64,000 nucleotides of DNA from an uncultured Pelagibacteraceae bacterium (GTDB lineage: Bacteria > Pseudomonadota > Alphaproteobacteria > Pelagibacterales > Pelagibacteraceae). Made by a program: the position numbers and the translations under genes. The stretch lies in NCBI GenBank assembly GCA_902604795.1, contig CACKZV010000001.1, positions 101,748 through 165,747 of the forward strand, in the 5' to 3' direction. Shown here piece after piece: positions 27,877 to 34,414 of this stretch. The notes below the pieces were generated by a model, which saw only the letters and a program-made list of their open reading frames with translations, had not been told where the DNA came from and did no database searches. The stretch's first letter is position 1. The number at the start of each line of letters is the position of its first letter.

Positions 27877-28016
27877 TAGTTTTTGGCACGTCGTTGTATG
27901 CGCTACCGCCATGCCGTCCACCCTACAATTTTAGCGCTACTCTGTAGAGCTTTCTGCCCTCTAGGCTTGAACCTCTCGGTTTTTCCCTAGCTGGTCAGTT
28001 AAGAGTTGCCTCTTAA
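27833..28016 (-). ncRNA. Candidate structured RNA (class unknown; limits approximate)
   Basis: Non-coding gap between two minus-strand genes; 84/170 GC over 27841-28010; hairpins with GCAA, GAGA and GAAA loops on the minus strand; ends in terminator-like hairpin plus T7. Confidence 0.55.
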
Positions 28017-28123
28017 TTCATTTTGAACAATATCAGATGTAGTAGGTTGTATGTATCACTTTATCGTTGAAAATACTGAGTTTTTAACAGGGATGAATAG
28101 TGGGGATAACTTAATCTAAAGCT

Positions 28124-28791: not shown

Positions 28792-28820
28792 TTGACTTAT
28801 AAAATGTGATATATTATATT
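28792..28820 (+). promoter_or_regulatory. Sigma70-type promoter of the tyrosine recombinase gene
   Basis: TTGACT (28792-28797), 17 bp spacer, TATATT (28815-28820). Confidence 0.6.
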
Positions 28821-28845
28821 TCCGATAATTAATGGTTATCGGAAA
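28819..28845. repeat. Perfect inverted repeat TTTCCGATAA-ttaatgg-TTATCGGAAA next to the recombinase start codon
   Basis: 10-bp arms, 7-bp spacer, 2 nt upstream of ATG 28848. Confidence 0.9.
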
Positions 28846-28847
28846 AA

Positions 28848-29768
28848 ATGACAGAAGTTATCACAGATCTAAAAAAACTTGAATTAGAAACATTAAAAAA
28901 TTTAAAAAGTTCAAAATCAATTAATACAATAAAAGCTTACGAATCAGATTTCAAAGATTTTACAGTTTTTTGTTTGAAAAATGGTCTTCAACATTTGCCT
29001 ACAGAACCGAAAGTAGTCTCTATATATTTGACACAAATGTCTAAAACTTGCAAATTTAGTACACTTAAAAGAAGAATAGCTTCAATAAAAGTAATTCATA
29101 AAATTAAAGGACACTATCTAGATTCAAAACATCCTATAATTATGGAAAATTTATTAGGAATAAAAAGAATTAATGGATCTTATCAAACATCAAAAAAACC
29201 GTTATTAATCAATGATTTAAAAATACTAATTAAAGCAATAGATGATGATAGCATTAATTATAATAAAAAAATTAGAAATAAATCATTATTGTTATTGGGG
29301 TTTTCTGGTGGCTTTAGGAGATCTGAGCTTGTTAATCTTAATTATGATGATCTTGATTTTGTTAATGAAGGATTAAAAATATTCATTAAGAGATCAAAAA
29401 CTGATCAATCTGGAGAAGGGACAATTAAAGCTATACCCTATTTTGAAAATAAGCAATTTTGCCCTGTTACTAATTTAAAAAACTGGATTAAGCATGCAAA
29501 TATATCAAGGGGTAAAATTTACAATATCTCAGACAAATCTGTATCACTAATAATTAAGAAGTATGCATTAATTGCAAATTATGACCCCAAAAAATATGGA
29601 GGTCATAGCCTTAGATCAGGTTTTGCTACTTCAGCAGCAGAAGCGGGAGCAGAAGAACGACATATCATGGCAATGACAGGGCATAAAACCACACAAATGG
29701 TAAGAAGATATATAAATGAAGCTAACTTATTTAAGAATAACGCATTAAATAAAATAAAATCTAATTAA
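28848..29768 (+). CDS. Tyrosine-type site-specific recombinase/integrase
   Basis: N-terminal SAM-like domain (SINTIKAYESDFKDFTVFCLKNG); GGFRRSELVNLNYDDLDF; GGHSLRSGFATSAAEAGAEERHIMAMTGHKTTQMVRRYINEA with R...HxxR...H...Y. Confidence 0.95.
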   Translation: MTEVITDLKKLELETLKNLKSSKSINTIKAYESDFKDFTVFCLKNGLQHLPTEPKVVSIYLTQMSKTCKFSTLKRRIASIKVIHKIKGHYLDSKHPIIMENLLGIKRINGSYQTSKKPLLINDLKILIKAIDDDSINYNKKIRNKSLLLLGFSGGFRRSELVNLNYDDLDFVNEGLKIFIKRSKTDQSGEGTIKAIPYFENKQFCPVTNLKNWIKHANISRGKIYNISDKSVSLIIKKYALIANYDPKKYGGHSLRSGFATSAAEAGAEERHIMAMTGHKTTQMVRRYINEANLFKNNALNKIKSN

Positions 29769-30274
29769 TAATTTTTTATTATGTTTTTTACCTGTAAGTC
29801 TAACGATAAGTTATTTTTATAAAAGAATTTAACTTTACTTTTTTCAGATGCAATTTTATCCGTAGGTTTATCGCCAATAAAAAAACTTTTTTTAACGTTA
29901 ATTTTCCATTTGAGAATAGCTTTAGATAACATTCCATTATTAGGTTTTCTGTCAATTTTATTCATTCTATATTTAAGTTTTTTTGAAAATTGATAATATG
30001 GGCAATAAAAAATATCATCAATTTTTGCATTTTTTTTTCTTAACAAATCTTTTTTCATTTTATTATGAATTATGAGAAGATCATTTTCTGACATTAAATT
30101 TTTACCAATTGCTGCTTGATTGGTAATCAAAATAACAAGAAAATTATTATTATTTAAAACTTTAATAGCTTCGCAAGCACCATTCGTAAATATAAATTGT
30201 GAATAATCAGTGATGTAACCTTTTTCAACATTTATAACGCCGTCACGATCAAAAAAAAAGGTTTTTCTAAACAT
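29765..30274 (-). CDS. HAD-IIIA phosphatase, GmhB-like (heptose 1,7-bisphosphate phosphatase family)
   Basis: FFDRDGVINVEKGYITDYSQFIF; LITNQAAIGKNLMSENDL; DRKPNNGML; FIGDKPTDKIASEKSKVK. Confidence 0.85.
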   Translation of the reverse strand: MFRKTFFFDRDGVINVEKGYITDYSQFIFTNGACEAIKVLNNNNFLVILITNQAAIGKNLMSENDLLIIHNKMKKDLLRKKNAKIDDIFYCPYYQFSKKLKYRMNKIDRKPNNGMLSKAILKWKINVKKSFFIGDKPTDKIASEKSKVKFFYKNNLSLDLQVKNIIKNY

Positions 30275-30291
30275 AAATATTTAAGGTAAAT

Positions 30292-31317
30292 TTATATATT
30301 TCTGTTTATTTTATTCAAACTTTTTTTAAAGTCAGAATTTAAAAAGGAAAATTTAAGATTCATATTGCTATACCACTCAGAAAAACTAATTTTTTGATGA
30401 TGATAGTCATTTATATTTTCTATATCAAAATTAAATAAATTATATGAGGGAATATTACAAAAATCAGATAAGTGTGTTAAGATTCCATGAGAACCAATAT
30501 TTAGTTTGGATAGACTAATTATATGAAAAAAATTTACGGAGTCTAAATTTTTCAAATATATAATTTTTTTCTTTTTTATCTGATTAAATTGAAATTTTGA
30601 TACATCAATACAGGAAAATTCTTTTTCAAAAAAATCTACATAATTTTTGGTATTTTGATTGATTTCTTTGTCTGAGCAGAACAAAATAAATTCATATTTT
30701 CTCAAAATTAAGTCAAAAAAATCAACAATATTTGCCTTACTCCATCCTAATTTTGCAAAAAAATTATATTTAAATTGAAAAAAAACATAATTTTTGGGTA
30801 ATAACTTTTTAAATTGATTATTTATACTGGGTAATTTTATAGATGAATAATCAAATAAAAATTCAGTTTTTTTATCAATTAATTCTAATTGTAAATTGCA
30901 ATAATTATTTATATTAATTTTATTTCTATAAATTACTCTATATTTATAAAGAAATTTTCTAAGAAAGTTAGGTGGCCTTAATCTCTTTTTACCATCGTAA
31001 ACAATTGCGTAAAACTTTGTTTTTCTAAAAAAATAAGGCAGAAAAAAAAAGAAATTTTTTGGTGAAAGAATGTATACAGAATCATATTTATTTATTAAAA
31101 TATTTATGAAAATTGATATTTTGTTCATTATAGTTAGGTTAAAATTAGTTTTTTTTAACTTCACACCACTAAAAAGAAATGAAAAATCATAATTATATTC
31201 TGATAAATAAATGGTTACTTTACTTTTGCTATTTAATAAGTTCGCAATTAATTTGAATGAAGCAAATAAATCACCTGCTCTATCATTTTTAAGTATTAGA
31301 ATTCTGTTATAATTCAT
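30292..31317 (-). CDS. Glycosyltransferase family 9-like protein
   Basis: RILILKNDRAGDLFASFKLIANLL start; SLSKLNIGSHGILTHLSDFCNIPSYNLF. Confidence 0.65.
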   Translation of the reverse strand: MNYNRILILKNDRAGDLFASFKLIANLLNSKSKVTIYLSEYNYDFSFLFSGVKLKKTNFNLTIMNKISIFINILINKYDSVYILSPKNFFFFLPYFFRKTKFYAIVYDGKKRLRPPNFLRKFLYKYRVIYRNKININNYCNLQLELIDKKTEFLFDYSSIKLPSINNQFKKLLPKNYVFFQFKYNFFAKLGWSKANIVDFFDLILRKYEFILFCSDKEINQNTKNYVDFFEKEFSCIDVSKFQFNQIKKKKIIYLKNLDSVNFFHIISLSKLNIGSHGILTHLSDFCNIPSYNLFNFDIENINDYHHQKISFSEWYSNMNLKFSFLNSDFKKSLNKINRNI

Positions 31318-31320
31318 AAA

Positions 31321-32304
31321 TTATTTTTTTAAAATTTTCATTAGATTTTTTGATGCATTTAACCAAGTATTCTGTCCTCTTTTTTTCATTAAATTATTTC
31401 TAATTTCATTCCATAAAACTTTATTTTCATAAAGTTCAATTATATTTTTTGAAAAATCATATTTATTTTTTGATATTAATCCTGTTATTCCATGATCAAC
31501 TCTTTCAGAAAGAGAACCAATACCCATTGTTACAATTGGTAAATTTAATTCTGAAGCTTCCATGGCTGCAATACAAAAAAGTTCAGCTTTATGACCGGGT
31601 AGAATTACCATTCTAGATTTTTTAATTTCATTTATATATTTTTTTTTTTCTAATAATTTACGATTAAAAATGTTAAATTTTTTTAAATTTAACGATATTG
31701 GTGTAATAAATAATTTTGATTTATTTCTTATTTTAAAAACATTATTTTTCCAAATATCAATAAGTATATCTAAGTTTCTATCTTGTCTTGATGTAAAAAA
31801 AGCATGATCATTGTTAATTTTAAATTTTTTAAGTGGTTTGTTAAAAATATCATCTACTGCATAATTTAATGTTTGATAACCAAACAAAGAAAACAGTTTA
31901 GACATTTTTTTCTTATGATACTTTCCTAGAAAAATATATTTTGGTCTATTTTTAAAGTAAGAAAATAACTGTTTTTTTCTGAAAGCCTTTTCTAAAGATA
32001 ATATGCTATGCGATAAAACAAATTTTTTTTTGCTGTTGAATTTACTTAATATATGATTATCGTTATTTGATATAACTATATCAAAACTATTAGTATAATT
32101 CTTAATTCTATCTAAATTTAACCAGCTATATTTGTGTTTATTGATTTCATATTTTGAATTATTAAATACAACGACATCATTTCCAAATTCTGATATTTTT
32201 TGTGATAAATTGATTATAGAAGACTCACTCCCTCTTATTTTAAAGTTATTTAAATCTTTAAATGAATATTCTAATTTTGTCGTATCAACAAAACAAATTT
32301 TCAT
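31321..32304 (-). CDS. Glycosyltransferase (GT4-like)
   Basis: IRGSESSIINLSQKI; AELFCIAAMEASELNLPIVTMGIGSLSERVDHGITGLISK. Confidence 0.8.
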   Translation of the reverse strand: MKICFVDTTKLEYSFKDLNNFKIRGSESSIINLSQKISEFGNDVVVFNNSKYEINKHKYSWLNLDRIKNYTNSFDIVISNNDNHILSKFNSKKKFVLSHSILSLEKAFRKKQLFSYFKNRPKYIFLGKYHKKKMSKLFSLFGYQTLNYAVDDIFNKPLKKFKINNDHAFFTSRQDRNLDILIDIWKNNVFKIRNKSKLFITPISLNLKKFNIFNRKLLEKKKYINEIKKSRMVILPGHKAELFCIAAMEASELNLPIVTMGIGSLSERVDHGITGLISKNKYDFSKNIIELYENKVLWNEIRNNLMKKRGQNTWLNASKNLMKILKK

Positions 32305-32305
32305 T

Positions 32306-34414
32306 TTATGTTTTATCCCAAAAAAATTTTGAATTTAATCCATATGTTCTCTCTATTATAAATCTTGCTACTAAATTTGAATTAAAATATTTGTGATATT
32401 TAGAGTGTCCTTTTTTTGCTATTTTTCTCCATCTTTTATCATCTTTACTGTATTTTAATATTTTATTTGCAAGATCATTAATGTTTTCATAAAAAATCAT
32501 TTCATCATCATTAAAAAAATCACTAAATTTTGTATCTTTATGTATGAATGTTAAAAGACCATTACCCATTAACTGCGCGATTCTATCACTGCTATAATAC
32601 TTTAATGGTTTTCCTCTACTTAAATTCAATGCCATCTTTGAATTTGATAATTTTTCCAAAAATTCATTGCCCCAAACTGGTTGGATACCAAACATTCCAT
32701 AAATATCATATTTAATACCTGATGTTTTTTTTTTAAGTTTTGAAATAAGGAGCTCTCTTTCATCATTTTTACCTGGTCTTAAACTACCTCTGTGAACACC
32801 GTGACTTATGGCATAAAATAAATCATAATAATGATTTTTATTGAAATTTTCTAAATAATCCAAAGATTTGTCGCAAGGATTTGGCATATAAAAAGGATTC
32901 TTAATTTTAAAATCAAGTACATCGGGTGATGTTGTAATAAATGATGCATCACAACTTAAATTTTTATCTAGTAATCTATCTTTATTTTTTAAATAATCTG
33001 GACCATTTTTTGAAATAGGATCTAAAAACCATTGACATATTTTTAAATTAGAAAACTTTTCTTTTGCATCAAATAAAACTTCAGTTTTCACTCTATCCGC
33101 ATGTCCAAGAATGACCATATCAGGTACAAAATTTTCAATTGTGCTCTTTACTAATTTATTTAGATATTTGGTACCAGAGGGATCACTTATTGTTTTAGTG
33201 TAACTAATTAAATCCCTATCTGATAAGCTAAGTACATTGTGTCCCTCTCTTATAAAGCCGTTATTAATTCTTATGCCTGTGTTATATTGAAGTCTTCCAA
33301 AGTATCGGAAATTAAAATTTGTGATATGTAAAATTTTTAATTTAGTATTTTTCTTTATATTAAAGGTTGATTTATCTATTATTTTATCTCTGATCTTATC
33401 AATTATCTTTGATACATATTCATGTGAGAGATAAAAAGACTTATAGTTAAGTCTTTGAACTTTTTTTCTTAATTTGTCATTAATTATAAGTTTTTTAATT
33501 AATTTATATAATAAATTTGAATCTAGTAGTTTTAATATTATAGGATGTTGTGTAGTTTCTGTTAACCCACCTTTATTTGTAATAATGGTAGCACATCCTA
33601 AGCTACATGCCTCAAGACTGGTTCTACCGAAAGGTTCTTCCCATCTAGAGCATGCAACAGATATACTTGATTTTTTAAGTAGATTTAAAACAAAGTTATT
33701 ATCTTTAAAGCTAAATAATTTTAAATTCTTATGTTTAAAAATAATTTTTTCTCTTGGCTCGTCCCCTACTACAATTGATTTCCAGTTAGGAAATTCATCA
33801 AGTATTTTTATAATCGACTCACCAAATACATCATAACCTTTTGCAGAATTAAGTTTACCAATAAACGTAATAATATTCTTTTTTGAGTTTAAATTTACAT
33901 TAATTTTTTTAGTTGATTGAAAGCATATTCCGAATTTTGAATTAAAATTATTTTCATTTATTTTTGAGAAAAATTTGTTTTTTGTCCACTTACTATTGAA
34001 GAATATATATTCACATTTATTTAATAATTGCATACGCTCTTTAACGCTTTTAGAACCTGATATATTTAATGGGTTATTATGAAAGTACAGAATAATTTTA
34101 GAATTTATTTTTTCGCATATTTCATTTACATAGTTTGGCCTATTATGAATTTCAATAATGTCTGGTTCTTGATTTTTTTGTAAATTAATAAATTTTGATA
34201 AATATTTTTTATTATTACTTGATAAAAAACTTTTATCTATTGAAATATTTTTATAATTTTTTGATAAGAACTTTTTACTTTTTGTGTTACCCCAAATAGT
34301 GATATTATTCTTAAACTTTGAATATTTATATAATTTTGAAACATGTATAGAAACTGCACCAGAAAACCTAGGTGAATAATCTTCCTTATATGGTAGTAAT
34401 GTTGCAATTTTCAT
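32306..34414 (-). CDS. Two-domain glycosyltransferase: N-terminal GT4-like, C-terminal CgeB-like
   Basis: 702 aa; EEPFGRTSLEACSLGCATIITNKGGLTETT in the N half; GMFGIQPVWGNEFLEKLSNSKMALNLSRGKPLKYYSSDRIAQLMGNGLLTFI in the C half. Confidence 0.8.
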   Translation of the reverse strand: MKIATLLPYKEDYSPRFSGAVSIHVSKLYKYSKFKNNITIWGNTKSKKFLSKNYKNISIDKSFLSSNNKKYLSKFINLQKNQEPDIIEIHNRPNYVNEICEKINSKIILYFHNNPLNISGSKSVKERMQLLNKCEYIFFNSKWTKNKFFSKINENNFNSKFGICFQSTKKINVNLNSKKNIITFIGKLNSAKGYDVFGESIIKILDEFPNWKSIVVGDEPREKIIFKHKNLKLFSFKDNNFVLNLLKKSSISVACSRWEEPFGRTSLEACSLGCATIITNKGGLTETTQHPIILKLLDSNLLYKLIKKLIINDKLRKKVQRLNYKSFYLSHEYVSKIIDKIRDKIIDKSTFNIKKNTKLKILHITNFNFRYFGRLQYNTGIRINNGFIREGHNVLSLSDRDLISYTKTISDPSGTKYLNKLVKSTIENFVPDMVILGHADRVKTEVLFDAKEKFSNLKICQWFLDPISKNGPDYLKNKDRLLDKNLSCDASFITTSPDVLDFKIKNPFYMPNPCDKSLDYLENFNKNHYYDLFYAISHGVHRGSLRPGKNDERELLISKLKKKTSGIKYDIYGMFGIQPVWGNEFLEKLSNSKMALNLSRGKPLKYYSSDRIAQLMGNGLLTFIHKDTKFSDFFNDDEMIFYENINDLANKILKYSKDDKRWRKIAKKGHSKYHKYFNSNLVARFIIERTYGLNSKFFWDKT

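Follow-up and report, generated by a model that had tools for sequence, protein, structure and literature searches.

SAR11 are among the ocean's most abundant bacteria. They have also been cited as a case in which genome streamlining removed the dif/Xer system, after a search for XerC/D/H/S-like proteins and dif-like motifs led Carnoy and Roten to describe Pelagibacter ubique as lacking it (PMC2731167). In the 64-kb stretch of Pelagibacteraceae DNA analyzed here (the window), a perfect inverted repeat directly precedes the gene of a tyrosine recombinase, and the question it raises is whether this dyad is a site on which the recombinase acts, an operator of its gene, or the trace of a mobile element. 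The first-pass annotation of the window favored a core site for the recombinase and allowed for an autoregulatory operator.

The dyad and its conservation

The dyad, TTTCCGATAA-TTAATGG-TTATCGGAAA, ends 2 nt before the recombinase ATG (Table 1), and its sequence and coordinates, with the arms, the spacer and the position of the ATG, were re-found in the window exactly as annotated. The annotated promoter is likewise present, with 17 bp between its -35 and -10 elements and the last two bases of the latter shared with the left arm.

Table 1. Elements of the dyad, its promoter and the adjacent gene, in window positions
Feature	Position	Strand	Basis
-35 element TTGACT	28792..28797	+	sequence; TTGAC kept in orthologues
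-10 element TATATT, sharing 2 bp with the left arm	28815..28820	+	sequence; similar in orthologues
Left recombinase arm TTTCCGATAA, type A	28819..28828	+	sequence and orthologue comparison
Asymmetric 7-bp spacer TTAATGG; strand exchange presumed here, setting site polarity	28829..28835	+	orthologue identity
Right recombinase arm TTATCGGAAA	28836..28845	+	sequence and orthologue comparison
Single Cre-like tyrosine recombinase, 306 aa	28848..29768	+	Pfam PF00589, E 1.6e-18; predicted fold (moderate confidence) matching Cre first

A perfect 10-bp dyad is not rare at 29% G+C (about 1-2 per 64 kb, by a hand estimate for spacers of 5-9 bp), and the dyad is judged real because of its conservation across orthologous loci, not because of the perfect repeat itself. 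That conservation, on which the annotation had made its proposal turn, is complete: GATAA-N7-TTATC precedes the recombinase in 106 of 106 orthologous loci, mostly within ~10 bp of the ATG. Two types of site can be distinguished. Type A, TTCCGATAA-TTAATGG-TTATCGGAA, occurs at 81 loci, all of which have the left TTCCGATAA and 79 of which have the spacer TTAATGG, and type B, TTACTAAYGATAA-TTAATKG-TTATCAATAGTAA, occurs at 25 loci, with TTAATTG or TTAATGG as the spacer in 23. The bases that flank the arms vary freely; given conserved arms and variable surroundings, the whole element, asymmetric spacer included, is therefore taken to be under selection, with a length of 25 bp (type A) or ~33 bp (type B). 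The position of the promoter is also conserved, with TTGAC 31-34 bp ahead of GATAA in 103 of 105 orthologous loci.

The 17-bp core was found in 264 of 399 genomes of the window's genus, none with more than one copy among the matches listed, and in its exact form in 49 of the 57 near-complete genomes of that genus; the site is also present in another genus. The remaining eight near-complete genomes, some of which are without the recombinase gene too, may reflect either assembly gaps or true loss. Within the window there is no second copy of the dyad at three or fewer mismatches (0.01 expected), as the annotation had observed. Across the whole genome the TTATCGGAAA arm is paired in inverted orientation at one place only, and a genome-wide search for a second copy of the site returned near matches at chance level. 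The inversion or excision between two sites that the annotation implied is thus unsupported, the core being single-copy and at the replication terminus. A second copy is not to be expected, because a dif site needs one copy per chromosome, and the annotation's refuting condition of no second site in any related genome would have been misleading.

Position at the replication terminus

With the terminus defined as the maximum of the cumulative GC skew, the site lies 0.6-2.1 kb from it in all four of the genomes that were complete enough to be considered (1.2-1.5 Mb, two genera), although related genomes with orthologous sites do not test the terminus position independently. In the 1.343-Mb genome G011 the skew peaks at 615,773 (616,050 when detrended) and the site is centered at 617,618, a gap of 1.6-1.8 kb. 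The corresponding positions of site and peak are 674,671 and 675,249 in G321 (peak within 400 kb; gap 0.6 kb), 919,971 and 918,460 in G412 (1.5 kb), and 773,634 and 771,546 in G531, a member of a second genus of the family (2.1 kb). In none of the four genomes is the site more than ~2 kb from the skew switch, and such a placement is the signature of dif. The skew curve of the window itself is flat-topped from ~16 to 32 kb and then falls, in agreement with a terminus but less sharply.

Two further features adjoin the terminus. An IMES-2 structured RNA (Rfam RF02035, 160.9 bits), an RNA of unknown function, lies at 27883-28023 on the minus strand, ~0.8 kb upstream of the site; of the 11 type-A loci scanned, 9 also have it, 0.3-1 kb upstream (L033 and L036 do not), and the type-B locus L181 lacks it. 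To the right of the recombinase, glycosyltransferase and heptose-phosphatase genes (29765-34414), also found in G011, form a surface-polysaccharide region.

A single recombinase and no XerC/XerD pair in Pelagibacteraceae

The catalytic residues of the recombinase (R157, K184, H253, R256, H279 and Y288) are invariant in 27 orthologues, and its best orthologues are all Pelagibacteraceae or Pelagibacterales records. Its predicted fold (mean pLDDT 75) matches Cre chains at ranks 1-32, followed by XerA and XerH, with a TM-score of ~0.55; identity to Cre is at most ~20% in alignments based on this moderate-confidence fold. The nearest relatives found outside SAR11 are plasmid 'site-specific integrases' from several phyla (34-41% identity over ~90% of the length). 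Several of the related plasmids carry long dyads with a GATAA-N6/7-TTATC heart, such as TGATGTCCGATAA-GTGATTG-TTATCGGACATCA. A lox-like site is clear near the relatives on pAACI01, pPNK, Ac37b plasmid 2 and pSporoP37 and at four alphaproteobacterial loci, these last with TTCCGATAA-N7-TTATCGG-like dyads directly upstream, and was not found by several others.

In the recombinase tree, type-A and type-B sites map to two clades without exception (branch support is moderate), and both genera are present in both clades; the script did not assign the window or G531 to a group, and both have a type-A sequence and lie in clade A. Arms and protein change together, which provides the best sequence evidence that the adjacent recombinase would bind the site. 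Combined with the invariant core and the similar sites beside related recombinases, this tracking of clade by arms strongly supports the tyrosine-recombinase core site that the annotation read, rightly, from the geometry.

The protein falls far short of the XerD (70.2 bits against a cut-off of 329.6) and XerC (65.4 against 335.15) models and is not XerS (58.8 against 267); its PDB profile match to XerH is also too weak (E 1.2e-6) to place it in that family. Most genomes of the window's family have one Phage_integrase gene, the window-type recombinase, which is the sole such match in the complete genome G011; a few have one extra accessory integrase. Sister-family genomes usually carry two, scoring near the XerD and XerC cut-offs. 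Judged from these profiles, Pelagibacteraceae lack the XerC/XerD pair, whereas the sister family keeps it. Seven sister-family genomes (G037, G040, G043, G044, G046, G047 and G048) share a conserved TATAATTACATTTATGTTAA that resembles canonical dif; a search for canonical dif in G011 gave only scattered weak matches. SAR11 FtsK retains its alpha and motor domains and its gamma domain (PF09397, E 3.4e-27 in G011).

These observations point to the dyad as the dif-type chromosome-dimer-resolution site of Pelagibacteraceae, probably served by the adjacent single recombinase, a reading to which we assign a probability of about 0.83. It contradicts the published absence of dif/Xer in Pelagibacter ubique (PMC2731167); the SAR11 recombinase and its site closely resemble none of the XerC/D/H/S proteins or dif motifs. 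We infer that two recombinase molecules would bind the inverted arms and that the directly repeated sites of a dimeric chromosome would pair at the terminus, probably joined or activated by FtsK, whose involvement is proposed because the gamma domain is retained. Strand exchange across the 7-bp spacer would then yield two monomers. A Cre/lox-type module, plasmid-like in its apparent origin, seems to have replaced XerC/XerD-dif. The site overlaps both the -10 element and the start of transcription, so recombinase bound there would probably repress the recombinase gene as well, and such autoregulation is plausible and compatible with dimer resolution. Against a dif-type site stand the 7 bp between GATAA and TTATC, compared to the 6 bp of dif, the exact core missing from 8 of 57 near-complete genomes, and the lack in G011 of a strongly polar FtsK-orienting octamer (no KOPS-like octamer exceeded 85% strand bias).

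Dif systems with a single recombinase are known for XerS, XerH and XerA. In XerS/difSL of streptococci and lactococci and XerH/difH of epsilonproteobacteria, one recombinase acts on a site that is linked to its gene, at the terminus, intergenic, palindromic and AT-rich (PMC2731167). SAR11 shares with both the single recombinase in place of XerC/XerD and all of these site features, but its protein lies outside both families and its site differs in its arms and in having a spacer of 7 bp. Similarly, the single copy, the terminus position and the FtsK gamma domain are held in common with XerC/XerD-dif, while the one recombinase, the nearly perfect palindromic arms and the scores far below the Xer cut-offs are not. 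Cre/loxP, Vika/vox, VCre/VloxP and SCre/SloxP also combine a single recombinase with inverted arms, and the best matches of the predicted fold are to Cre; unlike these systems, the SAR11 module is chromosomal, at the terminus and family-wide, and its site overlaps a promoter. The arms of SloxP also read CCGATAA...TTATCGG.

As far as the searched literature shows, a Cre-like recombinase of plasmid kinship with a lox-like terminus site is new for this major family, reported to be without such a system. The function of dimer resolution would thereby have been kept in SAR11 through a different enzyme, a natural instance of chromosome work carried out by a lox-type module. The site would also pin down where replication ends in a dominant marine bacterium, and the module would offer a candidate self-contained recombination tool.

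Copies of the site in pelagiphages and alternative readings

The exact core occurs in 19 IMG/VR contigs, and as many as 42 have B and A sites in tandem, a few of which look like chance (e.g., L303, L308, L315 and L321); a reversed-pattern control in viral contigs gave 0 matches against 16. Most site-bearing contigs resemble fragments of HTVC010P-type pelagiphages, in which the site lies a short distance upstream of terL, and a second phage lineage with another terminase and portal (L298, L301 and L316) also bears it. Among isolates, HTVC106P, HTVC100P and HTVC035P have recognizable, partly degenerate site pairs, and HTVC010P and others have weaker versions or none. Four complete pelagiphage genomes and 12 contigs contained no match to PF00589, the tyrosine recombinase profile, and the IMG/VR contigs yielded no host-type recombinase. 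HTVC010P-type TerL was detected in 1 of 300 host genomes, with no copy integrated at the site; earlier reports of lysogeny, or of the site as an att sequence, are possible in the literature. In that host genome (G201) a single contig, C20, carries HTVC010P-type terL twice in opposite orientation, which was rejected as a prophage and is probably a single-cell amplification artefact or chimera.

The phage copies bear on what else the dyad could be. Were it an operator only, through which the recombinase or another regulator represses the promoter while recombination occurs elsewhere or not at all, that would account for the way it reaches into the -10 element and start of a conserved promoter at nearly every orthologous locus. 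This reading is improbable. Such an operator would have no need of an asymmetric spacer identical in 79 of 81 loci and no reason to sit at the skew maximum in genome after genome; nor is there reason to expect it between the terS and terL genes of phages without the recombinase. Slightly less credible still is an attB of a phage, genomic island or invertible segment, with the recombinase as the integrase of a mobile element: the kinship to plasmid integrases, the glycosyltransferase-rich variable region to the right and the matching phage sites agree with it, but the gene and its site have orthologues throughout the family and are single-copy, with no second boundary copy, and a tyrosine recombinase is missing from the phages examined, so that the enzyme is not their integrase. 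That another protein recombines a dif-like terminus element and the adjacent gene is coincidental is very improbable, since the extra accessory integrase of a few genomes is set against G011, with no further Phage_integrase match, and against arms that change along with the adjacent protein.

For the dimer-resolution site, the phage copies suggest that integrase-less pelagiphages of at least two lineages may exploit the host recombinase, either to integrate or to resolve multimers. The likeness is to IMEX phages (CTXphi, VGJphi and the dif-integrating microviruses), which, like these pelagiphages, have no integrase and carry copies of the host's terminus site; the pelagiphages differ in being tailed podoviruses and in having both site types, arranged in tandem, near terL. 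The joint proposal, that SAR11 swapped XerC/XerD-dif for a plasmid-type Cre-like recombinase with a lox-like terminus site and that the host enzyme is used by abundant pelagiphages without an integrase, those of HTVC010P type and of at least one further lineage, through a dual-specificity tandem B and A site by terL, is tentative, and we consider its chance somewhat below even. If true, integration at the terminus of either host type, or resolution of genome multimers, would be open to phages that are classed as lytic. Whether very abundant integrase-less pelagiphages engage the host chromosome through the terminus site becomes a testable question.

The spacers of phage and host sites differ. 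All 16 exact phage type-A cores (L223-L238) have TTAATTG, but 79 of the 81 type-A hosts in the window's genus have TTAATGG, and this may reflect either different hosts or a selected mismatch. The host spacer of G531, from another genus, is TTAATTG, like that of the phage type-A cores.
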